A stretch of DNA of 64,000 bases. It comes from Candidatus Proruminimicrobium quisquiliarum. GTDB lineage: Bacteria; Elusimicrobiota; Endomicrobiia; Endomicrobiales; Endomicrobiaceae. The stretch covers positions 186,001 to 250,000 of the forward strand of contig JAHDRN010000007.1 in NCBI GenBank assembly GCA_018433245.1, read 5' to 3'. Below, piece by piece: positions 44,855-64,000 of this stretch; position 1 is the first letter of the stretch, and each line of letters starts with the position of its first letter. Made by a program: the position numbers and the translations under genes. The notes below the pieces were generated by a model. The model was given only the letters and a program-made list of their open reading frames with translations. It did no database searches and was not told where the DNA came from.

Positions 44855-45725
44855 CTATAGGTAAGTATCAAAAAAACCATATTGGCTGCATTGTTTGCCG
44901 CAATAATGACTAAAACTTCCGTTTTTCATTTCTTTTCTGTATTGCTGCATTATATTTCCATTCCAAAATTTCAATAAACTTGAATATGTATGGTCAAGTT
45001 TATTATTACAACAACAATGTCCTTTTATAGAACCATCAGAATCCAAATATAATGAAATCCATGGAACCCTGCATTTTTTTTTGTTACATTCAGATTTAAT
45101 ATTTTTATCACTAATATTAACATGTTCTGTTTTGTTTTTTATTCTTCTCGGTAAATCATATATAAGCATAACATTATTTTGTGCTGCAACATCAATAATA
45201 TGCTCTTCATTTTCATAAAGTTTATCAATGATCGGATTAATATCAAGAATTTCCCTCGCACCAACAAAATATTTTTCACTATTTGGCAAATAAAATTCTC
45301 CATCATTAGCCAAACGTAAATAAAAAAGCTTATATTTGTTTGCCAGTATTATGAATTTTTCGATTTCAACATAATTTAATTGTGATATAACTACATTTAG
45401 AGTTAATTTATTTGATGTTCCATATTTCATTTTTATATTTTTCTGAAAGCTGCCATTTTGGGAATTGATTACAACAACACATAATACTCTGTAAATTACA
45501 TTTATTTGTAAGTGTAACTTTTAATACTCTTGGTTTTGATTGTAAAATTATAGCACCTGTTGCAATTTCATATTCGTTGAGAAGAATGTTATAAAAACGT
45601 TTATCCTTGTATAATCAATCATCTTTATTCTTATTAAAAAATTTTATGACTTCACTTCTTGGTTTTGTTTTTAATTCTTTCAATAAATTCAACATTTCTG
45701 AATAATTCAAAAATATCTCCAACAT
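44855..45725 (-). pseudogene. Decayed radical-SAM/SPASM array member
   Basis: Three pieces of one gene can be read. An ATG at 45725 opens a short 36-codon frame ending in TGA. A second stretch (about 45600-45420) retains the array linker (LLNEYEIA, then LQSKPR) and the core motif, but as CNLQSIMC, so the middle cluster cysteine is Ser. The third part (ATG 45430 to 44855, 191 codons open) resumes in another frame late in the core and keeps the SPASM-like end (CRVPW, GHCCC, CGKQC). About 110 residues carrying WQGGEV, TNGLLLNE and SVDG are missing. The frame breaks and the deletion imply loss of function. The last 191 codons could still be translated. Confidence 0.8.
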
Positions 45726-45735
45726 ATAAAATCTT

Positions 45736-47127
45736 TTATATATTATTAGAGTAATGCCGCATTGGCTCAACTATTTTAATTGAAGTTTTAGATAATCTCT
45801 CATCCAATCTTTTCAATCTGGATTCCCTAATATCATATGTATTTTGCATATCTTTTGAATTCCAATGATGAGCTTCATAATAATTCAAATCAACAGTATC
45901 AAAGAAACGTAATCTGGCAACATCATGAGTAATAGAACAAAAATTCATATAAATATCCAAAACGTAAGGCGAAATCCTTTCAAGAAAATTCATCGTATCA
46001 TTCCAATCTTTCTCCGTTTCTCCTGGAAATCCAACTATCATGGTAATTACCGTATCTATACCCAAATCCGAAGCATTTTTCAATAAATTTTCTGCTTCTG
46101 CAGATTTAAACGGTTTTGACATTAACTTTAAAACATTATCAGAACCACTTTCTATCCCGAATCTTAAATGTGTAAAACCTGCTTTCTTAATTTTCTTTAA
46201 AAATTCATAATCCATATCTTGTGTAACTTTTGCATTTGCCTTAAAACTAATTTCATTCTTTGTTAAATTTAATGCAATTATTTTATCACATAAATCGGAT
46301 AAAATTTGAGTATCTTGATTACATGCACAATCGTACAATTGGAATTTATATTCTTTTCTATAATATTGTTTAAGTCTCAGTAATATTTCTTCAAATATGT
46401 TATCTGCTGTTCTAGTTCTAAATTTATCCCAGTTATAAAAAACTGTACAAAATTTACATCTCCAACTACATCCTCTGCTAAATAATAAAGGTATTTCTTT
46501 AGAGGTATAATCAAATAAATTTAAATCAGATAAATCAGGGAAATTAATTTTATCAATATCCATTATTTCTTCACGCTGAAAATTATCTATAATTTCACCC
46601 TTATCATTGAAAGAAGTTGTTCCTTTTATATTACACATTGCTTTATTTCTGACTAAATTATCAAAAATTTCCAGTATCGTATTTTCACCTTCTCCCTTTA
46701 CAATAATATCAACTGTATCTTTTGCCAATAATTTATGTAATTTAGGATCACCTGGACCGCCACATATAATGAAAACATCACGTTTTTTTTGTTTTATTAA
46801 TTTTGACAATTTTTTAATTATATTTAAGTTTGACATCCATACAGTAAATCCTATAACATTGATATTATCTTTTATAATATAATCATCTATCCATTTTAAG
46901 AAATATTCAATATGATTATTATAAAATTCTAATTGATTTTCCTCATTATCCATATATTTCATATATTCTTCTTTCAAATTATTTGTTTTTTGGTTTAGAT
47001 CTTCTATTTTAACTGAATAACCTTCTTTTTTTAATGTTGAAGATATATATGGTAATCCTATAGATGGCAATTCTATAGGCATAAAAGGTGCTACTACCAA
47101 CAAACATTTTAATTTAGATTTGTCCAT
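45736..47127 (-). CDS. B12-binding-type radical SAM enzyme at the end of the array
   Basis: The 463-residue protein has an N-terminal Rossmann-like cobalamin-binding-type domain (about 1-160: SIGLPYISSTLKKEGYSV, VIGFTVW, ICGGPGD, VKGEGENT) and a radical-SAM core with C220, C224 and C227 in SRGCSWRCKFC. RFGIESGSDNVLKLMSKPF and IVGFPGET follow. The classic DxHxxG cobalamin ligand is absent (EDLNQ), as in many members of this class. Such enzymes methylate, cyclise or rearrange diverse substrates. It is unrelated in architecture to the SPASM paralogues but lies 8 bases after one, with a strong GGAGAG ribosome site, so it probably acts in the same pathway. Confidence 0.88.
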   Translation of the reverse strand: MDKSKLKCLLVVAPFMPIELPSIGLPYISSTLKKEGYSVKIEDLNQKTNNLKEEYMKYMDNEENQLEFYNNHIEYFLKWIDDYIIKDNINVIGFTVWMSNLNIIKKLSKLIKQKKRDVFIICGGPGDPKLHKLLAKDTVDIIVKGEGENTILEIFDNLVRNKAMCNIKGTTSFNDKGEIIDNFQREEIMDIDKINFPDLSDLNLFDYTSKEIPLLFSRGCSWRCKFCTVFYNWDKFRTRTADNIFEEILLRLKQYYRKEYKFQLYDCACNQDTQILSDLCDKIIALNLTKNEISFKANAKVTQDMDYEFLKKIKKAGFTHLRFGIESGSDNVLKLMSKPFKSAEAENLLKNASDLGIDTVITMIVGFPGETEKDWNDTMNFLERISPYVLDIYMNFCSITHDVARLRFFDTVDLNYYEAHHWNSKDMQNTYDIRESRLKRLDERLSKTSIKIVEPMRHYSNNI

Positions 47128-47135
47128 ACTCTCTC

Positions 47136-48455
47136 CTATAGGTTATTGCTCCACCAAAATAAATTAGGGTTTATTATATTTTTTAAAGATTTACTGTGAG
47201 TTATTCCGGTGATGCAATTTTTAGCACATCTTGAATGGTAAGAATTATCTGATATTACTTTTCTGTATTCCTGCATAACTTTGCCATTCCAAACATCTGG
47301 AAGTTTATCTCTGTCTATATTGCCAGCAGATTTATTTCTGTCGCAAAAACATTCCGGATTTATTGTACCATCCGAATCTATAAAAATTTTCTGCCACGGG
47401 ATATGGCATAAGAGACGATTTTCAGAAATATTTTCAATTTGAGAATTTTTTGTTTCATTTGCGCCGTTTGAAACGACATTATCCGAAACTGTTATGCATT
47501 CGCTTTCAGAGTTAAAACACGGCAGACAATCAAAAAGTTCTATTCCGAAATTCTTACATTTTGCGGCCAATTTTCCTTTTATATCAGTTATTTTTCTTTC
47601 AAATTCAATATTTTTATTATAATGAAATATATTTTCATCGGAAATAAAATCAGGGCCGAAGGCATTAACGCACAATTTCGTAAATCCATATTCCCTTGCA
47701 AATTCCGGAAAAAATTCTATTTGTTCAATATTTTTTTTCATAACCAAAACATTTAATCCCAAATTTGTAAAATTACCGAAAAATTCTGATCTTATCCGTT
47801 TTAAGATATTGAGATTATTAATAAGAGTTTCAAACTTTCCTCCTATTCTGACAGATTCGTAAATTTCTTTAGTAATTCCTTCTACGGATATATAAAGGTC
47901 AACATTATATTTAACAAGTTTAGTTATGATGTTTTCGTTTAAAAGAAGCCCATTCGTAACTATTTCCTGACAAACGTTGTTTCTTCCTGCATGGTCCATA
48001 AGTTCTTCAAAGCGTTTATAAAGAAATACTTCTCCGCCTTGCCATTTTACAGTTTCCAAATAAGGCATAAGTTCAACAATTTCATCAATTGCATGTTCCG
48101 GCAATTCCCATTGATTTTTTATTATCCTGCACATTATGCACTTAACATTACACAGAGTTGTCACAACACAATAGAGTACTCTTGCTTTTGATTTTAAGAT
48201 TGTTTTTCTTTCTGCTATTTCAGATTCATTTAATAGAATATTGTCAAATCGCTTTTTTATCTCTAACGGTACTTCTATTGTCTTAACGTTATCAATTATA
48301 CTAATAACTTTTTGGACATCACCTTCTATATTTCTTTTCTGTATATCTACAATTATTTTATTTATTAGTTTTTGCAAGGATTTTTCATAATCTTTAGCTG
48401 TTTTATATCCTTTTTCTAAATCACTCTTCAAATTCAAGTATTCATTATAATACAC
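47136..48455 (-). CDS. Radical SAM/SPASM-like array protein J
   Basis: A 439-residue paralogue starting at GTG 48455 (CGGAG 7 bases upstream). Residues 1-75 are helical without clear TPR units. The linker LLNESEIAERKTILKSK leads to cluster cysteines C102, C106, C109 (CNVKCIMC). VKWQGGEVFLYKRF, EIVTNGLLLNE and YISVEGITKEIYE follow. The C-terminal Cys module reads C, 12 residues, G, 5 residues, CxC, then CxxxC, a reduced SPASM pattern for an extra Fe-S cluster. A short polar insert precedes it. It is closely related to the next gene upstream (same spacing residue by residue around the core), so the two come from a recent duplication. Substrate unknown. Confidence 0.88.
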   Translation of the reverse strand: MYYNEYLNLKSDLEKGYKTAKDYEKSLQKLINKIIVDIQKRNIEGDVQKVISIIDNVKTIEVPLEIKKRFDNILLNESEIAERKTILKSKARVLYCVVTTLCNVKCIMCRIIKNQWELPEHAIDEIVELMPYLETVKWQGGEVFLYKRFEELMDHAGRNNVCQEIVTNGLLLNENIITKLVKYNVDLYISVEGITKEIYESVRIGGKFETLINNLNILKRIRSEFFGNFTNLGLNVLVMKKNIEQIEFFPEFAREYGFTKLCVNAFGPDFISDENIFHYNKNIEFERKITDIKGKLAAKCKNFGIELFDCLPCFNSESECITVSDNVVSNGANETKNSQIENISENRLLCHIPWQKIFIDSDGTINPECFCDRNKSAGNIDRDKLPDVWNGKVMQEYRKVISDNSYHSRCAKNCITGITHSKSLKNIINPNLFWWSNNL

Positions 48456-48479
48456 AATTAAACTCCGAAAATTTTATTC

Positions 48480-49787
48480 TCAAAATTCCCACCAAAATAA
48501 GTTTGTATTAATTACATCCTTTAAAACTTTAGACGGAATTCTTCCTTCAGTACAGTCGCTTTTACAAATTACATACTGATCACCATTTATTATTTTTTGT
48601 CTATATGCCTGCATATTATCATTATTCCATATTTCGTCAATTTTATTTTTTGAGATATTACCTATTGAATATTCTCTTTTACATAAACACTCAGGCATTA
48701 TCGTACCATCTGAGTCTATAAAAATTTTTCTCCACGGAGCGTGACAAAGAAGTAATGTTTTTGTAACATTTTCAACTTCACCTTTTGTATCTTCTTTTTT
48801 TACACTCTCCTCTTTTTTGTCCGATGGAATTTCATTCATTATTCTATAACTAGGCAAACTATCAACAAGTTCTATATTCATATATTTACATTTTTCGAAT
48901 AATTTTTCTTTTATATTCATTATTTTGTATTTAAATTTATCGCTTTTGTTATAGTGAAAAATATTTTCTTGAGAAACAAAATCAGGACCAAATGGATTTA
49001 CACATAATCTTGTAAATCCATATTCAGCTGCAAATTCCGGAAAAAACTCTATTTGTTCTATATTGCTTTTCATTACCAGAACATTCAATCTCAAATGTGA
49101 TTTTCTTAATCTATTGTTTAATTTAATTTTTTTTAGCAATTTTATATTATCAATTAATTTATCAAAATTTGCACCAACTCTTATGTATTCATATACATCT
49201 TTGGTAAGACCGTCAATAGAAATGCCCAAATCAACATTATACTCCACTAATTTATGAATATTTTTCTCATTTAACAATAATCCGTTTGTAACAATCTCTT
49301 GATTTACTTTATTTAAATTGGCTGAATCCATCAATTTTTCAAAATGTTTGTAAAAAAAAACCTCTCCGCCCTGCCACATTACATTTTCCAAATAAGGCAT
49401 AAGTTCTATAATTTCTTCAATTGCCCGTTCCGGTAACTCCCACTTATGTTTTTCAATATCACACATTATACATTTAATATTACAAAAGCTTGTTACAGCA
49501 CAATAAAGACGTCTGATTTTAGATTTTAAAACTGTTTTTCTTTCGGCTATTTCATATTCATTTAACAAAATATTATCAAAACGTTTTTGTATTCCGGAAG
49601 GGACCTTTATATTTTTAACATCATTAAATATTTCAATTACTCTTTTAGTGTCACTTTCAATATTTTTTTCTTGAATATCAATAATTATTTTGTTCACTAA
49701 TTTTTGCAAATCTCTTTCATAATCATACGGATTTTTATATCCTTTCTCCAAATCTCTTTTTAAATTTATATACTCGTCATGATACAT
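48480..49787 (-). CDS. Radical SAM/SPASM-like array protein I
   Basis: Starting at ATG 49787 it is 435 residues. This start aligns with the N-terminus of the downstream twin (both begin MY, two residues, EY); an upstream GTG at 49826 would add 13 residues inside a small inverted repeat. Cluster cysteines are C102, C106, C109, the same numbers as in the twin. VMWQGGEVFFYKHF, EIVTNGLLLNE and GISIDGLTKDVYE are present. A Lys/Glu-rich insert precedes the SPASM-like CHAPW module with CLC and CKSDC. Likely activates a hydrogen on a peptide or other substrate by the deoxyadenosyl radical. Confidence 0.88.
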   Translation of the reverse strand: MYHDEYINLKRDLEKGYKNPYDYERDLQKLVNKIIIDIQEKNIESDTKRVIEIFNDVKNIKVPSGIQKRFDNILLNEYEIAERKTVLKSKIRRLYCAVTSFCNIKCIMCDIEKHKWELPERAIEEIIELMPYLENVMWQGGEVFFYKHFEKLMDSANLNKVNQEIVTNGLLLNEKNIHKLVEYNVDLGISIDGLTKDVYEYIRVGANFDKLIDNIKLLKKIKLNNRLRKSHLRLNVLVMKSNIEQIEFFPEFAAEYGFTRLCVNPFGPDFVSQENIFHYNKSDKFKYKIMNIKEKLFEKCKYMNIELVDSLPSYRIMNEIPSDKKEESVKKEDTKGEVENVTKTLLLCHAPWRKIFIDSDGTIMPECLCKREYSIGNISKNKIDEIWNNDNMQAYRQKIINGDQYVICKSDCTEGRIPSKVLKDVINTNLFWWEF

Positions 49788-49806
49788 GTTAATATATTTC
49801 TCCTGT

Positions 49807-49826
49807 GTGAACCACAAAAAGTTCAC
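49807..49826. repeat. Short inverted repeat between array genes H and I
   Basis: GTGAAC (49807-49812) and GTTCAC (49821-49826) form perfect 6-base arms around an 8-base loop in the 45-base gap. It may fold in the mRNA just before the ribosome site of gene I and affect its translation. It could equally be chance. Confidence 0.35.
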
Positions 49827-49832
49827 ATTTGT

Positions 49833-51812
49833 TCAACAATTTAATGATTTACATGATCCACACCATTTTTCTGCACAAGCTCCTATTAAATCTTTTCTTA
49901 CATTCTGTATTTTTAAAGAATTCCATATTTTCAATATATCACAAGAATTTATATTACCCAAAAGTAATGGTTGCCCGCACGAAAAACTTGGCATTATCGA
50001 GCCGTTTTCTGTAATTGCTATATATTTCCACGGAGCCTGACAAAAAGTATTTTTAGGTTCAAGAACGTGATTGCAATAATCGTCTTTGAAACATGCACTA
50101 TTAACAGTATTTTTTTTCTCTATTTTGGGCAAATAAGAGATAAATTTAATTTTTGTATTTATTAATTCTTTTGATAAACGTTCAACAGTCTGATTAATTT
50201 TTTTGATTCTATTGTTATATTCAACAAGTTCAATACCATTTTCTTTAAAAAATATATTTTCCTTATAAAAAAAATTATTATCTTTTAATTTTTTTAAAGG
50301 AGAAAGAACAACTTCATCTATTTTATTTTTAATTGCAAATTCAGGAATAATATGCATTTGATTGATATTAGCATTCATAACGGTTGTATACATTTTCAAT
50401 CTATTCTGATTTGTTCTGTGTTTGTTAAACATAGACATAAATTCCTGCATCTTATCAAAACCGTTAACCCCTCTTATATACTCATATGTATCAGCGTCAA
50501 ATCCGTCAGCTGAAACTGCTATATTCATATCGCCATGCATTACTTCTTTAAGCAAATTTTCGTCCCAATTTATCCCGTTTGTTATAATATGTTGGCTGAC
50601 ATTATATTTTCTCGCGATATTGACAAGCTCTCTGAATTTCTTATAAAATCGGACTTCTCCGCCCTGCCATGTAACACTGTCGGAATATTTTAATAGTTTC
50701 GCAATATTATTAAATCCTGTATCAGTTAATTCCCATTTTACATCCTTATTTATACTGCACATTTTACATTGAGAATTACATTCGTTTGTTAATAACACTT
50801 GAATAACTCTAGGTTTTGATTTTAAAGTTATTTTTTTTTCGGTCCATTCCATTTCATTTATTATAGAATTTTTTATATTAAAATTTTTTCTGTCTCTCTG
50901 TTGTTTTAAAATCTTAATATAAATATCATCTTTAATTTTATAATTTTTTTGTCTGGCTGAAACCAATATTTGAAGCAATAAAGAGTTTGTTTTTTTTATA
51001 AAATTAGGATCATTTTTTAAATATTTTATTTTAATAAGTTTAGAATAATATAAAAGCATTGAATCTATATCAAGCCCGTCAAAACTATCTATATTATCTG
51101 TATTTAACCTGATTAAATTATTCACAACATAATCTACAAGATTTCTTTTGTCTTTCAATTCTAACAAACTTATGTTTTTATATGCTTCTTTATATTTTTG
51201 TTGAAAAGTTAAAGAATCTATATACATTTTATTTATTTCCGAATTAAACGGATCCGACAAAATAATATTTTTTAAAAATTTTTCTTCTTTATTTAATTCA
51301 TTTTGTTGTCTGTAGTGTAAACTTATATCTCTGGCTATATTAGTCTTTTCCTCTGTTTCCAATTCATTTATATTATCTATTACAATTTCAAACCATTCTT
51401 TCTTATCATTATCCGTTAATTTTTCATTAAAAATCTTATTATAAAATACTTCTTTCACAATCCATGTAATAGTTTTTTCTTTTTTATCTTTGTTTTTTAA
51501 TATTGTTTTTATCAAATTCATTGTTCTTCTTAATTTAGTAGTTTTATTTAGAAAAATGAAACATTTGCAAAAACCAATCCATGCGTGAATATTGGAATTA
51601 TCAATTTGCAATACTTTTTCAAAATATTCACTTGCCTCAATAAATTTACATTCTCCCGATAAAAGTTGGCCCATTTCTAAGATAACAGATATATTTTGTT
51701 TATATTTTTCATCAGAGAATATTTTAGATAACAATTGCTTTGACATTAAGAATTTGCCTTCTTTATTATATTGTCTTATAATTTCTAATTCTTTTTCTAT
51801 TGTTATTATCAT
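49833..51812 (-). CDS. Helical-repeat radical SAM/SPASM-like array protein H
   Basis: A 659-residue protein. Residues 1-330 are helical with TPR-like units (for example ECKFIEASEYFEKVLQID near 54-71 and KEAYKNISLLEL). The linker NEMEW, then KSKPR leads to C345, C349, C352 (CNSQCKMC). VTWQGGEVRFYKKF, HIITNGINWDE and AVSADGFDADTYEYIRG follow. The C-terminal module begins CQAPW but the first Cys of the CxC pair is Phe (SFSC), and the end has WCGSCKSLNC, so its auxiliary cluster ligands differ from the paralogues. This is one of the most AT-rich genes in the window: line 51001-51060 has only 7 G or C. Confidence 0.86.
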   Translation of the reverse strand: MIITIEKELEIIRQYNKEGKFLMSKQLLSKIFSDEKYKQNISVILEMGQLLSGECKFIEASEYFEKVLQIDNSNIHAWIGFCKCFIFLNKTTKLRRTMNLIKTILKNKDKKEKTITWIVKEVFYNKIFNEKLTDNDKKEWFEIVIDNINELETEEKTNIARDISLHYRQQNELNKEEKFLKNIILSDPFNSEINKMYIDSLTFQQKYKEAYKNISLLELKDKRNLVDYVVNNLIRLNTDNIDSFDGLDIDSMLLYYSKLIKIKYLKNDPNFIKKTNSLLLQILVSARQKNYKIKDDIYIKILKQQRDRKNFNIKNSIINEMEWTEKKITLKSKPRVIQVLLTNECNSQCKMCSINKDVKWELTDTGFNNIAKLLKYSDSVTWQGGEVRFYKKFRELVNIARKYNVSQHIITNGINWDENLLKEVMHGDMNIAVSADGFDADTYEYIRGVNGFDKMQEFMSMFNKHRTNQNRLKMYTTVMNANINQMHIIPEFAIKNKIDEVVLSPLKKLKDNNFFYKENIFFKENGIELVEYNNRIKKINQTVERLSKELINTKIKFISYLPKIEKKNTVNSACFKDDYCNHVLEPKNTFCQAPWKYIAITENGSIMPSFSCGQPLLLGNINSCDILKIWNSLKIQNVRKDLIGACAEKWCGSCKSLNC

Positions 51813-51834
51813 AAATATATTCTACAAAAATTTA

Positions 51835-53325
51835 TTACATATTTTTTAAATAAAGATTTGATATTCTACCATTTTTACAATCCAAAGCGCATTTTTCATC
51901 AAATCCGTTATTAATTATATTTTTTCTTATTTGCACTATTTTATCATTATTCCAGATATCATCTATTTTTTCTTCATTTATATTACCTACTATCAAATTT
52001 TCGCAATTACAATTATTTCTTACAAATCCGCCTATATCAATCTGAAGACTCTGCCAAGGCATATAACAACAAAATTTTTGTTCTTTTCTTTCATTTCTAT
52101 TTTGGTATTCGCAAATACCGGAAACATTTTCAAATTCAGGCAACCAAGCTTCATATGAAATATCCGCTTTTTTAAATTTTTCAGACAATATTTTTGAATT
52201 TTTTATCACATTTTTTAATATATCTGAATCATCATTATGATAAATAAAATTTTCTTCGCTTATAGAATCATGACCTAATGTATTAACATGGACATGATTA
52301 AAACCATATTTTATGACAAAATCATATAAATCACTTAACTGCCTGTAATTACTTTTCATGACTAAAAATTTTAAACCGTATTTAATATAAACGTTAGAAC
52401 TTTTTTGAATATTTTTTATAATTTCCAAATTATTAATTAATTGTTTAAAGTTTCCGCCACAATGAATTAATTCATAAATCTGTTCTGTTAAACCATGAAT
52501 CGAAATATTTAATTCCATACCGTTATTTATTACTTTCTTGATTCTTTCTTCATTTAGAAGAAGACCGTTGGTAGAAACAACTTGGTTAACGTTATATTTG
52601 CCCGCTTCTGCTATTAAATCATCTATCCCTTGGTAAAGGAAGGGTTCTCCGCCGTGCCAAATAACTTTTTGCAATGTTGGGAATAAATGATAAATTTCAT
52701 GTAATTTATCATTTGGAAAATCCCAGTGATTTAAAGGTACTTTACACATTTTACATCTGATATTACATTTACTCGTCATTGAAATTATTAACACTCTTGG
52801 TTTGGATTTTAAGACAAACTCTTTATTTAAAATCTCTAATTCATTAGTAAGAATATTTTTTAATTTACAATCTTCTATACATTCTTTACATATTTCCAAT
52901 ATCTTTACTATTTTGTTTATGTTATATTGATCATCACTTTCTTTATATTTAAATAATTTTCTAAATAAAAAATTTATTAAATCAGACACATCATTTTTAA
53001 ATTTTTCTTTATAAGAAATTATTTTTTTTGCATATAAACCAACCTCATCATAATCTTCAAGATTACATAAAACTCGCAACATTGCCCGTATGGCATATAC
53101 ATTATCTTCATCTATATCTAAAACTTTTTTAAACCATATTTTTGAATCACTGAAATTTTCACTGGCCAAATAAATTTGTCCCATTTCCAAAATAACCATT
53201 TTGTTTTCAGCATTTTCTTTATCTTTTATGATTATATTCATCATATTCAATGCTTTGTCCAAAGATTTATTTTTTATATGTTCTCTTACTTCTTCCACTT
53301 TTTTATTTAATTCATGCAATTCCAT
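51835..53325 (-). CDS. Helical-repeat radical SAM/SPASM-like array protein G
   Basis: The 496-residue product has TPR-like helices over residues 1-155 (EMGQIYLASENFSDSKIWF near 47-65). After NELEI and KSKPR come C187, C191, C194 (CNIRCKMC). It is the only array member with the canonical proline of the GGEP motif (IWHGGEPFLYQG) and with His in place of Gln before it. NISIHGLTEQIYELIHCGG replaces the usual ISVDG segment. SPASM-like cysteines CYMPW, NCNC and CALDC are complete. The start ATG 53325 has AAGGAT upstream. These differences suggest a different substrate or reaction geometry. Confidence 0.87.
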   Translation of the reverse strand: MELHELNKKVEEVREHIKNKSLDKALNMMNIIIKDKENAENKMVILEMGQIYLASENFSDSKIWFKKVLDIDEDNVYAIRAMLRVLCNLEDYDEVGLYAKKIISYKEKFKNDVSDLINFLFRKLFKYKESDDQYNINKIVKILEICKECIEDCKLKNILTNELEILNKEFVLKSKPRVLIISMTSKCNIRCKMCKVPLNHWDFPNDKLHEIYHLFPTLQKVIWHGGEPFLYQGIDDLIAEAGKYNVNQVVSTNGLLLNEERIKKVINNGMELNISIHGLTEQIYELIHCGGNFKQLINNLEIIKNIQKSSNVYIKYGLKFLVMKSNYRQLSDLYDFVIKYGFNHVHVNTLGHDSISEENFIYHNDDSDILKNVIKNSKILSEKFKKADISYEAWLPEFENVSGICEYQNRNERKEQKFCCYMPWQSLQIDIGGFVRNNCNCENLIVGNINEEKIDDIWNNDKIVQIRKNIINNGFDEKCALDCKNGRISNLYLKNM

Positions 53326-53333
53326 AAATATCC

Positions 53334-55196: not shown

Positions 55197-55197
55197 A

Positions 55198-55220
55198 AAA
55201 ATAAAATAATATTTTATTTT
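55198..55220. repeat. All-A/T palindrome between array genes E and F
   Basis: AAAATAAAAT (55198-55207) and ATTTTATTTT (55211-55220) are perfect 10-base inverted copies around 3 bases. Being only A-T it folds weakly; it could mark an RNA cleavage site or be chance in very AT-rich DNA. Confidence 0.3.
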
Positions 55221-55228
55221 TAAAATTA

Positions 55229-57421
55229 TTAATAACTGTATCTGAGTTTTTCTATTGGCAAGACATTTTCTTTACAACTTTCAGAACATTCTTTATAAGT
55301 ATCCTTAATAAGCAAATTATGACGCAAATTAATCATATTATTACTATTCCATATATTCATCAGCGTTTCATTTGATACGTGTCCTACTGTAAGACTGTAT
55401 GCACAATTGCAATTTACCTTAACATAACCGGTACATCCAACAAATAATTTCTGCCACGGAGAATAACAATATATTTTTTTTGCAGCAGCCTCTCTTTCAT
55501 CTCTCTTAACCGGAAAGACTTCAGGCATAGTCGCCATAGCAAAAAAATTAAATTTAAATTTATTATTTTTTTTTAATTCTATATTGTTCATAATAACATT
55601 TTCAGGATATTTATCTCTTAAATTATCCATATGTTTTTGCGTTGGCATACAATTTTCAACCTCAATATTATATTTCTTTGCCCTATTTAAAACTTCTTTC
55701 ATTTTTTCATCCAAATCTTTTCTCTTATAAAAAAATATATCCTTATCATAATAACCTTCATGTGGAGTAAATGTTATGTAATCAAATTCATATTTATGGG
55801 CAAAATCAATGAAATCTGGTATCTGTTCATAATTAGTTTCCATAATCACAACGCATAATCTCTTCTTCATATATTTGTTGACCCGATGTTTCACTTTATT
55901 AAGAAGATTAATTTTTGCTATAAGATTATCAAAGTTTGCGCCAAGTCTTATCTTCTCATAAATTTCTTTTGTCACACCGTCAACTGAAATGGATAATTCA
56001 ACATTATAATCAACCAATTTTTTAATTATATTATCATTCAATAAAAGAGCGTTTGTTGAAATTATTTGTTTAACGTTATGTTTATTGGCGATATCAAATA
56101 ATTCATCAAAATGTTTATATAAAAAAACTTCTCCGCCGAGCCAAAGTACTTGTTCCAAATACGGCATAAGTTCAATAATTTCATTTTTTGTATTTTCAGC
56201 CAATTCCCATGGAACAGATTTAATATTCTCGCACATAATACACTTTAAATTACATCTATTCGTAAGAGTTATTTCTAAAATTCTCGGTTTTGATTCTAAA
56301 AGTTCTTTTTTTTGCAAAATTTCTTTTTCATTAAGTAAAATATTATCGATCATTTGTTTCTTGTCAGGCAATTTCTTTATAATTTTTTGAGCCAATTCTT
56401 CAGCATAACTATAATTATCACTTAATATATACTTTTGCATTTCATCTATTAATTTGTTCGTAATACTGTTTTTAAAATAAGTATAGTTTCTTTTGACCGA
56501 TTGATTCTTTTCTAACTTTATTACAACTTCTAAAGCAACCAATAAATCTATATGAATCTGCAAATTATTTAAATCCAATATTTGCTGTACTATATTTTCA
56601 GGATTATAAATATCCTGTTTAATCATCAGAATATCAAACAATTTATTCATTGCATTTTCTATATTTCCTATCCCTTCATAACATTTTGATAAATAAAAAT
56701 ACAATTTTGCATCTTCATAACAATAGGATAAATATTTAGATAATATTTTTTCAAATTTTTCGTATTTCTTTTCTTTTAAATATAAATCCGCAACCTCATG
56801 AACAATATTAATATCATCATATGTATTAAGCAATGTATCTGCGATATTTAATGCTTCTTGTGTTTGTTCTGATAGAAGATAAACCCTAAATAATTCAAGC
56901 AAATAATTTTTATTTTTATTATTCTTTATTCTTAGCAAAACTTTTTTTGCGTTGTTAATATCTTTATTTTCCAAATATAACTTGGCCAATAATACTGCAA
57001 CATCAATGTTTTCATAATGATTTTTATTTACATAGTGTTCAAAATAAAATATTGCTCTTGTTCTGTCTATATTGATAAAAAATTTTGCAATCTCAAGATA
57101 TATCTGAATTTCATTGGGAAATTGTTTGTCAATTATTTTAATAAGTTTATTAACATAATCAATGTCATTACCATTATAAATTTTAAAAAATAGATCAAAA
57201 ACATAAACGTCTGTTATTACGCCAGTATTTATTATATTTTTTAAGATTTTAAGTGTTTCATTAATTTGGCCCAATTCAGAATATACTTTTGCCAATTCAA
57301 AGTTGACATAAAAATCGTTTTTATCATCTTTTGACACAATAATCAATAACTCCAATGCCTTTTTATAATTGGCGTTTTGAATATAATTCTTTGCCATATT
57401 AAACATTTCTTTATTTATCAT
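55229..57421 (-). CDS. TPR radical SAM/SPASM-like array protein E
   Basis: A 730-residue protein with the longest N-terminal repeat part: about 350 residues of TPR-like helices (ELAKVYSELGQINETLKIL, LFRVYLLSEQTQEALNIAD). NEKEILQKKELLESKPR precedes C390, C394, C397 (CNLKCIMC). The SAM-binding motif is LWLGGEVFLYKHF (Leu instead of Gln), then ISTNALLLND and SISVDGVTKEIYEKIR. The C-terminal cysteines are CYSPW, NCNC and CSESC. Its start lies inside the stop region of the preceding gene (11-base overlap). The large repeat domain probably binds a protein or peptide partner. Confidence 0.87.
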   Translation of the reverse strand: MINKEMFNMAKNYIQNANYKKALELLIIVSKDDKNDFYVNFELAKVYSELGQINETLKILKNIINTGVITDVYVFDLFFKIYNGNDIDYVNKLIKIIDKQFPNEIQIYLEIAKFFINIDRTRAIFYFEHYVNKNHYENIDVAVLLAKLYLENKDINNAKKVLLRIKNNKNKNYLLELFRVYLLSEQTQEALNIADTLLNTYDDINIVHEVADLYLKEKKYEKFEKILSKYLSYCYEDAKLYFYLSKCYEGIGNIENAMNKLFDILMIKQDIYNPENIVQQILDLNNLQIHIDLLVALEVVIKLEKNQSVKRNYTYFKNSITNKLIDEMQKYILSDNYSYAEELAQKIIKKLPDKKQMIDNILLNEKEILQKKELLESKPRILEITLTNRCNLKCIMCENIKSVPWELAENTKNEIIELMPYLEQVLWLGGEVFLYKHFDELFDIANKHNVKQIISTNALLLNDNIIKKLVDYNVELSISVDGVTKEIYEKIRLGANFDNLIAKINLLNKVKHRVNKYMKKRLCVVIMETNYEQIPDFIDFAHKYEFDYITFTPHEGYYDKDIFFYKRKDLDEKMKEVLNRAKKYNIEVENCMPTQKHMDNLRDKYPENVIMNNIELKKNNKFKFNFFAMATMPEVFPVKRDEREAAAKKIYCYSPWQKLFVGCTGYVKVNCNCAYSLTVGHVSNETLMNIWNSNNMINLRHNLLIKDTYKECSESCKENVLPIEKLRYSY

Positions 57422-60284
57422 TTAAATAATCCATAAATTTTAAATACAACAAATCGTAATCAGAGTTTTTAATATTTTCTAACAAATATTCTATTTTATA
57501 CAGTGATTTATTTATTGGTTTTTCAAGAGTTTTAACGGCTTTTTCAATTTCCCCGTTGTTGGCATAAATTCTTGCTAAATCAATATAAACTTTTATATCC
57601 GTTAAATTCATATTTATTGCATTTAATAAAATTTTTTCGGCATGAGTAAAAAGATTGCACTCATAATATAAAACACCTGCAAATTCAAGATATATATCTG
57701 TATTCATAATATCAATTTCTAGGATTGATTGGTATATATTAACAGCTTCTTTTAACATTCTTTTTTTGATGCAGTATCTCGCTAAATTTAAAAATGAATC
57801 TTTATTTTCTTTCTTTAATCCTATTAAATATGCCACTAAATCTTCAACTCTAAAATCTTTTTTATTATCTTCAATATAATTAAATAATAAATCATCAGTT
57901 ATACTCTTTTTATTTTTCATCATAATACAAATTTGTATAAAATGTTTTTTTATAATATTGTCATCATTACGGCTATTTTTTATAAAATAAAAAATATTAA
58001 TTAAAATTTCTTGCCTTTTTTCTTTATTGTACAACAAGAGCAATCTTTTTATTATAGAATTATATGTCATTGTATTTCTGTCATAATATTGTTCTGAAAA
58101 ATCAGAGAATTGCAAATCCAAATCTTTAACTTGCGTATCAAAATCAAATAATTTTTTATAATATATTTTTCTTTTTTCATAGCTATCAATATTGTTAATA
58201 AAAAATATAACTTTATTCAGTGCTTGATCATCTTTTACACTCAAATCCAAAAGCAAAGTTAATGTTTTTTCATGTCCATAGACAACTGAACATTCATCCG
58301 CTGTAACATTTACAAAATCAAAGTTTGAAATTGAAAATTTGCTCGATTTTTCAATTAACCTTACAAATCTGTCAAGTCTGTTTGATGCTATCAGATTACG
58401 GGCATATTGAAACAAAAATCTTTCATCCTGTATATTTAGGTCATACATACGATCAAAATAAAGATCTTTTTGGCTGTCGTTGCAAAAATTTTTAATAAAA
58501 TACAAAATATCCAGCATTATATTTTTGGTATCCTTTGATTTTTGGGCATTCATTATCATATCATCTATACTGAAATAATTGTCGCATATCTTTCCGTCAC
58601 GGCAATGTTCCTTGCATAAAGTTTTATATAAATCCTTTGTTATTATATCTCTATAAACAATCATTTCTTTTGAATTCCAAATATCTGTTAAAGAAATATT
58701 TTCCTTAAACTTAATAATATTATTATTTTTATCGCATCTGCACTGACAATCGGGCCAAAAAGTACCGTCATAATCAAGTATTAACTGCTGCCAAGGTATA
58801 TGACACATTAAGTTATTAAAATTATATTTTTTTTGATCTATATCGCGGGCGCCGATCTGAGCCGGCCTGTGTTGACTTGGCATTTCAAGCATGTATTCTA
58901 ATCTTGTTTTTTTATTCTTGGCTGTAATATTTTGTTTTTCAAAGCCAATCCATTCATTTATATCAACTTTTAGCGGAATATCTTTGACTAAAGCATCTTC
59001 CAGCAAAATCACTCTGTTTTCAACTTGTATATTATATTCCGCACTTCTCTTCTTAATTTCATTAATTTGTTTTGTAACTGAATTATTATCATATATTTCA
59101 GTCATTACTCCGTATCTCAACGGCATAATGCAAAAAAAATCGGCATTATATCTGCGGGCAATCTCAAATAATGACAATAACTGGTCATCATTGTGTTCGC
59201 AAACAACAAAATTAATACCCCATGTAAAATTTTTATTATTTTTATTTCTGACACCTGAAATATATTGCATATTTCGGACAAGTTTTTCAAAACTGGCGTT
59301 TTTTCTTATGGTTTCATATGTCTTTTTATTTACTCCGTCAACAGAAATAGTTAATTCTAAATTCATGTCAACCAATAAATCTATAATTTGTTCGTTAAGC
59401 AGCTGTCCGTTTGTAATTATCCCCTGCTGTATATTTGGATATTTTGCGGATTCCGCCAGTAAATCAAAAAAATATTCCAATGCAAAAACTTCGCCGCCCT
59501 GCCACATCATCTTTTCCAAATACGGAAAAAATTCTTTTATTTCATTTATTTTTTCTTTAGGATATTCCCATTTAAAATCTTTAACATAACACATTATGCA
59601 TCTGAGATTGCATGCATTTGACAAATTAATTCCGAGTCTTAAAGGTTTCGACGTAAGTTCGGTTTTGCCTTGTGCCGTTTCTAAAAAATTTACAAGTTTA
59701 TTCCTGAAAAATATTTCATTTTCCGGTATATTCTCTATTTTATCCGCAACAAGTTTAACTACTTCTTTATATTTTCTTGCAGTTAAATACAATTCCGCCA
59801 AATTAACTATGGCAGTCTGATTATTTTTATTGACATTTAAAGCTTCCGTATATTTTTTTTCAAGTCTTTCATATATTGCACTATCTAATTGTTTCGGAAT
59901 TTTCTCATAAAATAAAAAATTTATGTCGTTTATTTCATTGTATAATTCATCTGAATTTTTTTCATCCGGCATACAAGTTTTAGCTTGTTCGCACATTGAA
60001 AGGGCTTTTCTGAAATAACCGGTTATTTTGTATATTTTTGCAAGAAATAAAAAAGCATAATACGCTATATGATTCTGTATATCCTTTTGCCGCAAATATA
60101 AATTAAAATATTTTTCAGAATCGTTATATTCATTTAAATAAAAATAATTTTTACCTATCTCAAAATAAATATAGAAATCATCTTTACATAGCAAAGCCTG
60201 ATTATACAATTCATTAGATTTTATAAAATTGCCCGAATTTGATGTTTTTTTTGCTTCTTCAATTAATTCATCAAATCTATCCAT
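57411..60284 (-). CDS. Radical SAM/SPASM-like array protein D with repeats on both sides
   Basis: At 957 residues the largest complete array member. TPR-like helices fill 1-195. The linker is degenerate (NFLETAQ, TSKPLR), then C225, C229, C232 (CNLRCIMC), WQGGEV at 261-266 and TISVDGVNKKTYE at 312-324. SPASM-like cysteines are C494, C513, C515, C517 and CKEHC. Residues about 580-957 are a second helical-repeat region ending in clear TPR units (EAVNIYQSILEIDIMNTDIY, cited to 20 residues). No other copy has this tail; it may come from fusion with the repeat part of a neighbouring copy. It follows gene C by 4 bases. Confidence 0.87.
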   Translation of the reverse strand: MDRFDELIEEAKKTSNSGNFIKSNELYNQALLCKDDFYIYFEIGKNYFYLNEYNDSEKYFNLYLRQKDIQNHIAYYAFLFLAKIYKITGYFRKALSMCEQAKTCMPDEKNSDELYNEINDINFLFYEKIPKQLDSAIYERLEKKYTEALNVNKNNQTAIVNLAELYLTARKYKEVVKLVADKIENIPENEIFFRNKLVNFLETAQGKTELTSKPLRLGINLSNACNLRCIMCYVKDFKWEYPKEKINEIKEFFPYLEKMMWQGGEVFALEYFFDLLAESAKYPNIQQGIITNGQLLNEQIIDLLVDMNLELTISVDGVNKKTYETIRKNASFEKLVRNMQYISGVRNKNNKNFTWGINFVVCEHNDDQLLSLFEIARRYNADFFCIMPLRYGVMTEIYDNNSVTKQINEIKKRSAEYNIQVENRVILLEDALVKDIPLKVDINEWIGFEKQNITAKNKKTRLEYMLEMPSQHRPAQIGARDIDQKKYNFNNLMCHIPWQQLILDYDGTFWPDCQCRCDKNNNIIKFKENISLTDIWNSKEMIVYRDIITKDLYKTLCKEHCRDGKICDNYFSIDDMIMNAQKSKDTKNIMLDILYFIKNFCNDSQKDLYFDRMYDLNIQDERFLFQYARNLIASNRLDRFVRLIEKSSKFSISNFDFVNVTADECSVVYGHEKTLTLLLDLSVKDDQALNKVIFFINNIDSYEKRKIYYKKLFDFDTQVKDLDLQFSDFSEQYYDRNTMTYNSIIKRLLLLYNKEKRQEILINIFYFIKNSRNDDNIIKKHFIQICIMMKNKKSITDDLLFNYIEDNKKDFRVEDLVAYLIGLKKENKDSFLNLARYCIKKRMLKEAVNIYQSILEIDIMNTDIYLEFAGVLYYECNLFTHAEKILLNAINMNLTDIKVYIDLARIYANNGEIEKAVKTLEKPINKSLYKIEYLLENIKNSDYDLLYLKFMDYLNDK

Positions 60285-60288
60285 TATT

Positions 60289-61917
60289 TTATTTATCCTC
60301 TACAGGTCTGCATAATTTATATCTTATCTGTCCTGAAATACACTCCGGCTGACATAAATCATGAAAATCATTTTCCGCCAGTTTTTTTCTGTATATTTGC
60401 ATATTTTTGCTGTTCCATAATTCAGCTAAAGAGAAATGTTCCGTACTGCCAAGCCATTTAGTGCACATTGCATAAGGTCTTGTCTGCCCCATATTATCAA
60501 GCAACAGCCTCTGCCAAGGAGCATAACATATCATTCTGTTATTGGCTTTTTTATTTTTTTCTTCATTTTCATGTTTTTTTTCGGTTTTTTCCTGTTTCTG
60601 CACAGATGACTGAACACTTTCATTGCCTACAAAATCATCAACAAGCTCATGTTTAAAATTAATTTCTTTGCATCCGCAGTCTACCGGCATCCAGTTATTA
60701 AATCTTATTCCATATTCTTTTGCCTTTACTTCAGCTGAAGGAATTGTTTTTCTCATATATTCAAAAGCTTTCTCATCTATAGGCTGAAAAATGTTTTCTT
60801 CAGGGTATCCTCTTATGGGATTCAAAGTAATTGCCGTAAATTCATATTTTTTTGCAAATTCAACCATTTTTTCTATTTCCTTATAGTTAGTTCGGCATAT
60901 AACAGGATTATAATAAGTGTTAATTTTTGCACCTGTTGATTTTCTTACTTCTTTTATCAATTCCAAAACTTTGCAAAGTTTTTCAAAACTGGCGCCTCTT
61001 CTTATGTATTCATAACTTTCTTTTGTCGCTCCGTCTATTGACAATACAAGTTCGACATTCCCTCTGGCAATGATTTCAAGATTTTTTTCATTCAGCAGCA
61101 ATCCGTTTGTAAAGATTACCTGATTTAAATTTTTACATTTTACACCCTCAGACAGCATATCCTCAAATCCGTTCATCAAAAAAACTTCTCCGCCCTGCCA
61201 GCAGATATCTTCCATATAGGGAAGCAGTTCAACTATTTCTTTAAGTATTCTGTCAGGCTCCTGCCACTTGCCTTCTCTCCATATATCGCATATTCTGCAG
61301 CTTATGTTACATTTGTTCATTATCATGCCTATCATGGCTCTGGGCTTTGACTCTAAAATTTCTTTTCTCATTGAAATTTCATACTCATTAAGGGCTTTAT
61401 TATGAAGATATTTGTCATTTTTTATTCTGCTGTCTCCAATCATTCTTTTGAATATATCTGCTGATTCCTTATCCCTGCCCGCTTCTCTGTATGCAATGCC
61501 AAGTTCAAAATTTGTCATTATATCGTCTTTTGCAAGCTGGTAAGCCTTATCAATATTCAATAAAGCCTGGTCTAAATCTCCCATAGCTTCGTGAAGCCTG
61601 CCTATTTCTTTAAATACTGAAACATCATTTTTTATTTTATCCGTAAATTTTCCGTAATATTCCATAGCAAGTTCGTTACGTCTTTGTCTGTGGTAAATTC
61701 TTGCCAGTTCCAAATCCGCTTCATGCATATTAGAATCGTTTACCAAAACTTTTTTATACATTTTTTCAGCTTCATGGTCATTGCCCTGTATTATTTTTAT
61801 TTTGGCAAGTTCAAAAACAGCATACTTATCCTTTATGCTTTCAAGTATTTTTTCGGCTTCTTTTAATCTATTCTCGTTTATTAATTGTTTGGCCTCTTCT
61901 ATTCTTTCACGTGTCAT
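60289..61917 (-). CDS. TPR radical SAM/SPASM-like array protein C
   Basis: Starting at ATG 61917 (GAGGAG 6 bases upstream, TAATG overlap with gene B) it is 542 residues; a frame extension to 61971 has no support. Residues 1-165 carry about four good TPR units (ARIYHRQRRNELAMEYYGK, GRLHEAMGDLDQALLNIDKA). NEYEISMRKEILESKPR leads to C203, C207, C210 (CNISCRIC). WQGGEVFLMNGF, IFTNGLLLNE and LSIDGATKESYEYIRRGASF follow. A Lys/Glu/Asn-rich insert precedes CYAPW; the first Cys of the CxC pair is Ala here (YAMC), and CQPEC is at the end. Its base composition is close to that of the housekeeping genes, unlike genes G and H. Confidence 0.88.
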   Translation of the reverse strand: MTRERIEEAKQLINENRLKEAEKILESIKDKYAVFELAKIKIIQGNDHEAEKMYKKVLVNDSNMHEADLELARIYHRQRRNELAMEYYGKFTDKIKNDVSVFKEIGRLHEAMGDLDQALLNIDKAYQLAKDDIMTNFELGIAYREAGRDKESADIFKRMIGDSRIKNDKYLHNKALNEYEISMRKEILESKPRAMIGMIMNKCNISCRICDIWREGKWQEPDRILKEIVELLPYMEDICWQGGEVFLMNGFEDMLSEGVKCKNLNQVIFTNGLLLNEKNLEIIARGNVELVLSIDGATKESYEYIRRGASFEKLCKVLELIKEVRKSTGAKINTYYNPVICRTNYKEIEKMVEFAKKYEFTAITLNPIRGYPEENIFQPIDEKAFEYMRKTIPSAEVKAKEYGIRFNNWMPVDCGCKEINFKHELVDDFVGNESVQSSVQKQEKTEKKHENEEKNKKANNRMICYAPWQRLLLDNMGQTRPYAMCTKWLGSTEHFSLAELWNSKNMQIYRKKLAENDFHDLCQPECISGQIRYKLCRPVEDK

Positions 61918-62987
61918 TAAATTCTCCTCATATTTTCGGGCACATTCCCTTTTGCGCATTCGGCACTGCATATATTAAGATTGCCACTTAAAATTTTATC
62001 GCGGTATTCCTGCATTTTTGGACTGTTCCATATATCAAGTATTGAATTTTCCATAACTGAACCGACTTTTGTCATACATAAACAGCCCGGCCTTACATCT
62101 CCGTCGGGATCAATATTTAACTGTTTCCATGGCAAATAACAAAATATATCTTTATTTTTTTCCTGTTTTTCATCTTCATTTGTGCGTTCACATTTTCTTT
62201 CGTCTAAACAGCCGGATTCCCGCATTTTTTCAGGTTCGTCCTTTTGAAGAGGCAGCGAATGCATAAATTTTATTCCGTATTCGGCGCTCTTATCAACAGT
62301 CTTTTGTAACTCGCCGGAGAAATTTTTTAAAATACAATTTTCGTTTTTTATAAAAATATTCTCCGGAATATCCTGTCCGCCGTATATAGGCATCATATAA
62401 ACAGAATCAAATCCGTATTGTTTTGCAAAATCAATAAATTGCTCAAGATTTTTATAATTTGACCGCATAACAACCGTATGCATTTTCAGAATAAGTTTTG
62501 ATTTTTTTTTCTTTCTCACTTCATTTAATTTTTCAAGATTTTTTATAAGAATATCAAATTTTGAACCGTATCTTATTTTTTCATATGTCTCTTTATCAAA
62601 TCCGTCAACCGAAACCGTAAGCTCCATATTCGCTTCCGTAAGCAGATCAATCCATTTATCGTTTAAAAGCATTCCGTTTGTAACTATAGTCTGCATAAGA
62701 TTTTTATTATTTAAAGATTCAATAAACAGTTTTTCAAAATAATCAAGAATTAAAACTTCGCCGCCTTGCCAGTTTACACTGGTCATAAAAGGAAGCAAAA
62801 ATTTTATTTCATCAACGACTCTCAAAGGTATATCCCACGGTTTTTTAACAACTTCGCACATAATGCATCTGGAATTACACTTCGTAGACAAAGTAACAAT
62901 CATTCTTTGCGGATAAGATTGTAAAACAATTTTTTTGTCTTTAATCTCTTGTGTGTTTAAATCTAAATTATTTTTAACTTTATTCAT
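61917..62987 (-). CDS. Radical SAM/SPASM-like array protein B without repeats
   Basis: A compact 356-residue form with no repeat domain: the linker is at the very N-terminus (QEIKDKKIVLQSYPQR) and the cluster cysteines are C37, C41, C44 (CNSRCIMC). VNWQGGEVLILDYF, TIVTNGMLLND and TVSVDGFDKETYEKIRYG follow. A Glu/Lys-rich insert precedes CYLPW, CLC and CSAEC. It shows the minimal catalytic unit of the family. It ends on the start of gene C by a one-base overlap and begins 12 bases after gene A. Confidence 0.88.
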   Translation of the reverse strand: MNKVKNNLDLNTQEIKDKKIVLQSYPQRMIVTLSTKCNSRCIMCEVVKKPWDIPLRVVDEIKFLLPFMTSVNWQGGEVLILDYFEKLFIESLNNKNLMQTIVTNGMLLNDKWIDLLTEANMELTVSVDGFDKETYEKIRYGSKFDILIKNLEKLNEVRKKKKSKLILKMHTVVMRSNYKNLEQFIDFAKQYGFDSVYMMPIYGGQDIPENIFIKNENCILKNFSGELQKTVDKSAEYGIKFMHSLPLQKDEPEKMRESGCLDERKCERTNEDEKQEKNKDIFCYLPWKQLNIDPDGDVRPGCLCMTKVGSVMENSILDIWNSPKMQEYRDKILSGNLNICSAECAKGNVPENMRRI

Positions 62988-62999
62988 ATTTTTATTATT

Positions 63000-64000
63000 T
63001 TATATGCAAACAAATTTTTTATGTTCATCAGAAACGGTATTATTTATACATTCTTTGCAACACCATGACTTATCTAAATTTATCAATTTTTTCCTATACT
63101 CCTGCATATTTTTATTATTCCAAATTTCCTCAAAATTTTCACATTCATAAGTTTTTTCAATATTTTCTAAACATAAGCATTCAGGTCTTATTTCTCTGTG
63201 CACTGTTGTGGCAAGCTGTCTCCAAGGGCGTAAACAGAAGGGAACTTTAAAATATTCAGTTTCACATTCTTTAATTTTTTCCGCATTGCAAGAATCGGTT
63301 TTATCGCAATTGTTATTATATGCAACATTATTATCGCATTTAACATTAAAACTATCCAATATAGGTGTTATATCCGGCAATAAATCAATAACTTTTATGT
63401 TGTTTTTTTTTGATTTCGTTAAAATTTGTATTTTTAATTCATTAATCTTTTTAAGGTCTTCCTCTGACTTATCATGAAAGTTATACTTTTTATGATTATG
63501 CTGTTCTATATCCAGTGGAGACAAAATAACGATATCAAATTTGTACTCTATCGCAAAATCCATAATTTTATCTAAATTATAAATATTTTCATCAGATATG
63601 GTTATTCTCATAGTTAAACTTATATTAGTTTTTTCTCTTTGTCTTTCTTCTCTTAAATATTTCAAATTTTCCAATAGAGTTTCAAATTTTGCCCCGCGTC
63701 TTATTTTTTCATATGATTCTTTTTCTATATTATCTATAGATATAGTAATGTCAAGATTCTTTGCTTTAAACAACAAATTTATCCAGTGTTCATTTAACAA
63801 CAAGCCGTTTGTTATAATAATTTGTTTTAAATATTTATTCTTACTAGCTTCTAAAAACAACTCTTCAAAGCCTTTATATAAAAAAACTTCTCCGCCCTGC
63901 CAAGTTATAAGTTCTAAAGTCGGTAAATTTTTTAATATATATGTTTTAAAATTTTCTGATATATCCCAACAATTTGCCTGATCTCTTGTGGCACACATCG
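63000..64000 (-). CDS. Radical SAM/SPASM-like array protein A (5' part beyond right edge)
   Basis: The frame is open to the right edge. Its first in-window ATG (63998) is not the start: it is the Met of the core motif (MC of a CxxxCxxMC pattern), so the N-terminus and two cluster cysteines lie outside. ITWQGGEVFLYKGF, IIITNGLLLNE and TISIDNIEKESYEKIRRGAKF are visible (Asn replaces the usual Gly of SVDG). A Cys/Asn/Asp-rich insert precedes CLRPW; the next Gly is replaced by Arg-Glu context (VHREIRPECLC), and CCKEC ends the module. It shows that the array continues upstream of the window. Confidence 0.85.
   Translation of the reverse strand, partial: MCATRDQANCWDISENFKTYILKNLPTLELITWQGGEVFLYKGFEELFLEASKNKYLKQIIITNGLLLNEHWINLLFKAKNLDITISIDNIEKESYEKIRRGAKFETLLENLKYLREERQREKTNISLTMRITISDENIYNLDKIMDFAIEYKFDIVILSPLDIEQHNHKKYNFHDKSEEDLKKINELKIQILTKSKKNNIKVIDLLPDITPILDSFNVKCDNNVAYNNNCDKTDSCNAEKIKECETEYFKVPFCLRPWRQLATTVHREIRPECLCLENIEKTYECENFEEIWNNKNMQEYRKKLINLDKSWCCKECINNTVSDEHKKFVCI

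Follow-up and report, generated by a model that had tools for sequence, protein, structure and literature searches.

A long radical-SAM gene array in Candidatus Proruminimicrobium quisquiliarum, a candidate modification section of a surface-glycan locus

Radical-SAM enzymes usually number one to a few per pathway, and the locus described here raises the question of what an uninterrupted row of 28 such genes could do. We analyzed a window of 64,000 nucleotides (C23:186001-250000, where C23 is one of the 35 contigs of the 1.94 Mb host assembly, G000), together with its flanks, other loci of the same genome and homologous loci in related genomes. The reading that we favor, at a probability of about 0.58, is that the array forms the modification section of a large ABC-exporter-dependent surface-glycan locus of the Endomicrobiales (Elusimicrobiota), the enzymes of which would tailor the glycan before its export.

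The genes of the array that lie in the window are listed below. The term "ext." designates the window numbering carried on beyond 64000 in the same contig, and the percentages refer to orthologues in the nearest named relatives, Endomicrobiaceae bacterium STB_19 (G001, same genus) and Candidatus Praeruminimicrobium purgamenti (G011).

44882..45656, minus strand: decayed family A copy, split over two frames and without its GGE region (many array members match it in tblastn; residual ORF 44855-45430)
45736..47127, minus strand: V, cobalamin-binding radical-SAM gene, last intact array gene (PF02310 and PF04055; G001 orthologue 78%)
47136..48455, minus strand: family A radical-SAM/SPASM-like, short N-terminus (PF04055 and PF13186; G001 orthologue 71%; dN/dS 0.17)
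48480..49826, minus strand: family A radical-SAM/SPASM-like, short N-terminus (alignment; G001 orthologue 80%)
49833..51812, minus strand: family A, long helical/TPR-like N-terminus (PF04055 and PF13186; G001 orthologue 62%)
51835..53325, minus strand: family A, TPR-like N-terminus (alignment; orthologues G001 66%, G011 52%)
53334..55196, minus strand: family A, TPR N-terminus (PF04055, SPASM, TPR; orthologues G001 73%, G011 59%)
55229..57421, minus strand: family A, long TPR-like N-terminus (alignment and orthologue comparison)
57411..60284, minus strand: family A, 957 aa, TPR-like regions at N- and C-terminus (PF04055 and TPR; G001 orthologue 71%)
60289..61971, minus strand: family A, TPR superhelix (AlphaFold model; orthologues in G001, G011, G061 and Omnitrophota G251)
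61917..62987, minus strand: family A without TPR (PF04055 and PF13186; orthologues in G001 and G011)
63000..64000, continuing to ext. 64655, minus strand: family A, TPR-like N-terminus (Omnitrophota G251 orthologue, support 98/99)

The first-pass annotation, made on this window, had described ten consecutive same-strand radical-SAM paralogues followed by a B12-type radical-SAM gene and a decayed copy, and all of these are present: ten family A genes at 47136-64000 (the tenth cut by the window end), the V gene, and a remnant that lacks its middle and aligns with family A in two frames. Its range of gaps, from overlap to about 45-60 bases, was correct as to the overlap and slightly too wide at its upper end, since the spacing among the ten genes runs from -55 to +32 bases. 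The array itself is real, and the main correction concerns its size. The row outruns the window and consists of 28 consecutive, intact radical-SAM genes on the minus strand, from 45736 to ext. 87410 (C23:231736-273410), the far edge lying close to the end of contig C23, with an intergenic spacing of -64 to +62 bases throughout. Read 5' to 3', the array starts with S (86301), H (85302), S (84229), V (82676) and two family A genes (80800 and 79129); continues with five B genes (78245-74439), A (73099), B (72290), A (70173), A (67969) and a B gene with TPR (66440); and ends with eleven family A genes (64625 to 47136) and V (45736), after which comes the decayed copy. The total is thus 16 family A genes (mostly TPR-linked and SPASM-like), 7 family B genes (STM4011-like), 2 V genes of the cobalamin type and 3 SPASM genes (S, H, S). 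Two further radical-SAM genes, together with glycosyltransferase genes, are found on contig C25, which brings the total to ~30.

The catalytic motifs are well conserved. CxxxCxxC is present in 28/28 intact array genes, GGE is invariant in the alignments of families A and B, and family A retains CxxxCxxC, GGE and a C-terminal auxiliary Cys module, which is reduced to mostly 4-5 conserved Cys; a shared CxxxCxxC core and reduced SPASM Cys module had been proposed for the ten window genes, and both occur in every one of them. PF04055 scores above its cut-off in each intact array protein scanned, and PF13186 (SPASM) in most of the scanned A, S and H proteins; among the five family A members scanned against Pfam, Radical_SAM was found in 5/5 and SPASM in 4/5. 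In family B, PF13186 is weak or absent and the likeness to STM4011 is weak. Both V genes (45736 and ext. 82676) combine PF02310 with PF04055, that is, a B12-binding domain N-terminal to the radical-SAM domain. The TPR-like repeats differ in length, as first described: among the ten window genes, seven have a long N-terminus, two a short one (about 70-80 aa) and one, 61917, has no TPR. The AlphaFold model of 60289 (pLDDT 82) comprises a TPR region at 1-200, the radical-SAM core and the auxiliary domain, and the earlier proposal of one catalytic unit joined to variable partner domains agrees with these N-termini, which vary around a shared core.

When the proteins were compared with family databases, as the first-pass annotation had recommended, the scanned members fell outside each characterised radical-SAM family: no curated NCBIfam cut-off was reached by any of the 11 of 28 array genes scanned (top scores lie far below the cut-offs, for example N_Twi_rSAM 96/170, W_rSAM_matur 106/380, rSAM_ocin_1 143/282). 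The nearest solved structures include BtrN, BlsE and DesII; those nearest to H are the sugar/cyclitol enzymes BlsE and BtrN (weak), and the family A auxiliary domain bears a weak likeness to BtrN. Many of the best profile and fold neighbours are peptide maturases, and the neighbours of family A, by sequence and by fold, do not separate sugar from peptide enzymes.

Additional evidence comes from the genes that accompany the array, and first of all from an exporter pair of the Wzm/Wzt type. The pair is located directly after the array in G061 (another family of the same order), inside it in G064, within the locus in G163 (another Elusimicrobiota family) and on the array contig in G062; it is also linked to the locus in Omnitrophota G331 and L059. 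In the host genome the pair lies on another contig, not in the array, yet it is co-inherited with it. In the Endomicrobiaceae the orthologous pair (53-59% identical) sits away from the array and, in well-covered genomes, heads a conserved mini-locus, Wzm-Wzt-B-V-SPASM, followed by GT2 where the contig allows. Among 67 Endomicrobiales genomes, 12 have strong family A genes, and the Wzm clade was detected in 10 of these against 0 of the remaining 55 (Fisher p = 2.7e-10, kinship ignored), with one copy per genome in nearly all array genomes and a patchy presence within genus g9. The two exceptions that lack it are G008 (78% complete) and G065 (no strong S-H-S core found). The carbohydrate-binding domain PF14524 (Wzt_C) is part of Wzt in Omnitrophota L059 and L065 and is absent from the Endomicrobiales Wzt; a Wzt without such a domain is also known from some O-antigen systems. 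The gene downstream of the Wzm-Wzt-B-V mini-locus (L019:10387-11394) is weakly similar to HprK-related kinase A (E 8.6e-4).

Nucleotide-sugar genes are a second type of partner. Family A genes outside the array adjoin genes for a GDP-mannose 4,6-dehydratase and a LegC-like sugar aminotransferase in G011 and G028, and in the host genome three tandem family A genes directly adjoin a dTDP-glucose 4,6-dehydratase gene (L016:6702-11723, C28); both dehydratases pass curated cut-offs, whereas the LegC-like aminotransferase does not. Taken together, the exporter, the glycosyltransferases, Wzt_C and the nucleotide-sugar genes point to an exported glycan.

It should be mentioned that radical-SAM genes are abundant elsewhere in this genome, with 82 Radical_SAM matches in the profile search of its 1.94 Mb. 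L017:5169-12800 (C31) contains a GDP-mannose 4,6-dehydratase, a LegC-like aminotransferase and three cobalamin-type-looking radical-SAM genes, a set that recurs by the family A genes of G011 and G028. Also on C31, L018:1399-18146 contains two NodU-like carbamoyltransferases, a U32-peptidase-like pair and several radical-SAM genes. A second radical-SAM-rich locus (L014-L015, C6:23000-46000) holds several cobalamin-type-looking radical-SAM genes, membrane proteins, two QueC-like genes and a U32-peptidase-like pair. Two family A genes are found within a pst/phoU phosphate-uptake region (L021:5155-9060, C1), with a similar insertion in G001 (L034), and a lone family A gene (L076:8955-10721, C23:73686) adjoins an apparent oligopeptide-type ABC transporter.

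A giant beta-helix repeat protein is encoded upstream of the array. Its nucleotidyltransferase-like C-terminal domain has no Pfam match; a conserved LRRG...GSSDID motif and the predicted fold are similar to those of aminoglycoside nucleotidyltransferases, although the fold match is weak (best E 6.6e-3). Contig C23 ends within the beta-helix repeats and C25 starts within the same repeat type; because both contigs interrupt the same repeats in matching orientation, they probably adjoin, with only about 5-7 residues of one repeat lost between the two as judged by eye. In other genomes with the locus the contigs likewise break in or near the beta-helix gene. After the beta-helix repeat, C25 carries GTx, GT4, two radical-SAM genes and GT2 (PF00535 and PF13692 in the flank), and a flank of this type is kept in G001, G011 and G020, and partly in G028 and G064. 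In the Endomicrobiales the beta-helix protein heads the array wherever the contig extends that far.

For the wider genome search H was used as the query, family A being too divergent for a contig scan. S/H/V/B homologues were found in nine Candidatus Omnitrophota records, strong H homologues occurring in a minority of the 285 Omnitrophota genomes searched. The S-H-S-V-B order is kept in other families and, partly as fused genes, in Omnitrophota, in which fusions are frequent: GT2-GT4-radical-SAM-S (1675-2163 aa), V-H, V-S, B-B and B-B-B. In G331, on one long contig of 1.26 Mb, the locus is led by Wzm, Wzt, a separate Wzt_C, GT2, GT2-GT4-rSAM-S and V-H, and continues with V, B, B-S, B, B-B, B, V, B and more, followed by PMT-like proteins. 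The Omnitrophota locus that is complete has about 17 radical-SAM domains. In G251 a family A array is located behind the B genes. No beta-helix was found at the array head in the Omnitrophota homologues examined.

On the favored reading, GT2 and GT4 glycosyltransferases would assemble a glycan in the cytoplasm, probably on a lipid carrier. The fixed radical-SAM core (S-H-S-V-B1..B7, with V of the cobalamin type) may then install invariant radical-dependent changes on the sugars, epimerisation, dehydrogenation, deoxygenation or C-methylation being candidates, and the variable tail of TPR-linked family A enzymes could add species-specific changes. The TPRs might dock the enzymes to one another, or to a carrier or scaffold, and the dedicated Wzm/Wzt pair would finally export the product. 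Some ~30 radical steps on one glycan would, to our knowledge, be unprecedented, which counts against the glycan reading. So do the position of the host's exporter on a separate contig, the lack of Wzt_C in the Endomicrobiales Wzt, the many peptide maturases among the profile and fold neighbours, the PqqD and S24/S26-like domains of some loci, and the fact that the joining of C23 and C25 is deduced from interrupted repeats. A stronger version, which we hold as tentative and rather doubtful, is a collinear assembly line, in which the ~30 radical-SAM enzymes act in operon order on one carrier-bound glycan while the TPRs hold them together, giving a new kind of surface polymer whose sugars, altered by radical chemistry, are not known from any other source; in Omnitrophota the enzymes are partly fused.

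The main rival is the modification of a peptide or protein, RiPP-like or as surface-protein maturation, possibly of the giant beta-helix protein itself, with the TPRs recognising the substrate. We regard it as unlikely, but the SPASM neighbours keep it in consideration, as do the PqqD and S24/S26-like domains of some homologous loci. Peptide maturases are numerous among the nearest SPASM profiles and folds, and the position of the beta-helix protein at the array head would suit such a substrate; PqqD (PF05402) is encoded stand-alone in G064 and fused to GT2 in G163 (L093:11496-12683), and a signal-peptidase-like S24/S26 domain is present in the loci of G064, G163 and G165. However, neither PqqD nor S24/S26 was found among the loci of the host genome examined, the Omnitrophota homologues examined have no beta-helix at the array head but do have GT2-GT4 fusions and an exporter with Wzt_C, and no scanned member passes a peptide-maturase cut-off. 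The array also has no precursor gene and no precursor-sized gap (gaps <=62 bases), which, together with the maturase cut-offs, led us to reject a strictly defined RiPP cluster.

We consider it quite improbable that the product of the radical-SAM core is a small molecule or lipid (a cofactor, a hopanoid- or tetrapyrrole-like lipid, or a glycolipid) which is glycosylated and exported, the sugar genes then serving for decoration. For the V proteins, the highest-scoring models are indeed those of HpnJ, BchE and C-methyltransferases, all far below their cut-offs, and the nucleotidyltransferase domain at the array head resembles aminoglycoside adenylyltransferases, but the loci examined showed no genes for polyketide, terpene, tetrapyrrole or NRPS pathways, and the exporter belongs to the polysaccharide type and carries Wzt_C in Omnitrophota.

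The history of the array was analyzed by comparison with related genomes, in which, as had been proposed for checking, the array recurs with the same partner genes. In the congener G001, 26/28 array genes have one-to-one collinear orthologues (reciprocal best hits) that are 62-91% identical (core genes 86-92%); family A genes 79129 and 80800 have no orthologue there, and the decayed copy is also absent. In G011 and G061, S-H-S-V-B1-B5-B6-B7 and several following A genes are collinear. The dN/dS ratio of the catalytic core (G000/G001) is 0.02-0.28 in all measurable pairs (core genes 0.02-0.06 where estimable, family A cores 0.03-0.28), which indicates purifying selection, and for most genes the catalytic core has changed more slowly than the TPR part. 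In an orthologue tree of 80 sequences, with the bootstrap nearly settled, family A 64625, 63000 and 60289 form separate orthologue groups, each with a protein of Omnitrophota G251 (support 98-100 / 98-100); G251 is a MAG, though probably not a mis-binned one, given that its GT-rSAM fusion is like the ones found in other Omnitrophota. The array had been called "lineage-expanded"; if this is taken to mean a recent burst, it is not supported: the array paralogues are about 28-40% identical to one another, their collinear orthologues extend across genera and families, and three groups reach Omnitrophota. On these grounds, and given the low dN/dS, a recent tandem amplification was rejected. That the row is a selfish or non-functional set of tandem duplicates, maintained by recombination and without distinct roles, is hardly credible, since the terminal pseudogene and the two genes missing in the congener are set against one-to-one collinear orthologues, purifying selection in each measured pair, intact catalytic motifs in all intact members and orthologue groups common to another phylum. 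That a row of ~30 genes is under purifying selection and keeps its order between families, and in part between two phyla, suggests a distinct job for each.

The first-pass annotation knew of no described system of this layout, and we likewise found none in the open-access literature searched. A surface glycan, if this is the product, would rank with the known biopolymers that depend most on radical chemistry, and the locus would then offer many uncharacterised sugar-modifying enzymes from hardly culturable groups.

The closest known systems each share a part of this layout. OGT and SPINDLY, TPR-fused glycosyltransferases that appeared as fold-search neighbours, also have a TPR superhelix fused to a catalytic domain, but here this domain is radical-SAM and not a glycosyltransferase. 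SPASM peptide-maturase systems (sactipeptides, mycofactocin, and proteusins such as polytheonamide) share SPASM, the cobalamin-type radical-SAM and, in some homologous loci, PqqD; they differ from the array by its lack of a precursor peptide, the absence of a passed curated family and the polysaccharide-type exporter. The sugar-acting BtrN, BlsE, DesII and AprD4 are similar in having a radical-SAM core with or without a twitch-like auxiliary cluster, but they occur singly or a few at a time in antibiotic clusters, whereas here four groups stand in a row and most family A members carry TPR. The Wzm/Wzt-dependent O-antigen and capsule loci share GT2/GT4, the Wzm/Wzt pair, Wzt_C (in Omnitrophota) and, in linked loci, nucleotide-sugar, carbamoyl-, deacetylase- and SGNH-type tailoring genes; they differ in the ~30 radical-SAM genes found here, the exporter that is unlinked in the host genome and the beta-helix/nucleotidyltransferase protein at the head. 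By its partner genes the array comes close to the simple known polysaccharide locus that had been named as the case against novelty, but it is neither simple nor known, and the array is set apart from ABC-transporter-dependent polysaccharide loci because of its radical-SAM content, its gene order and its fusions.
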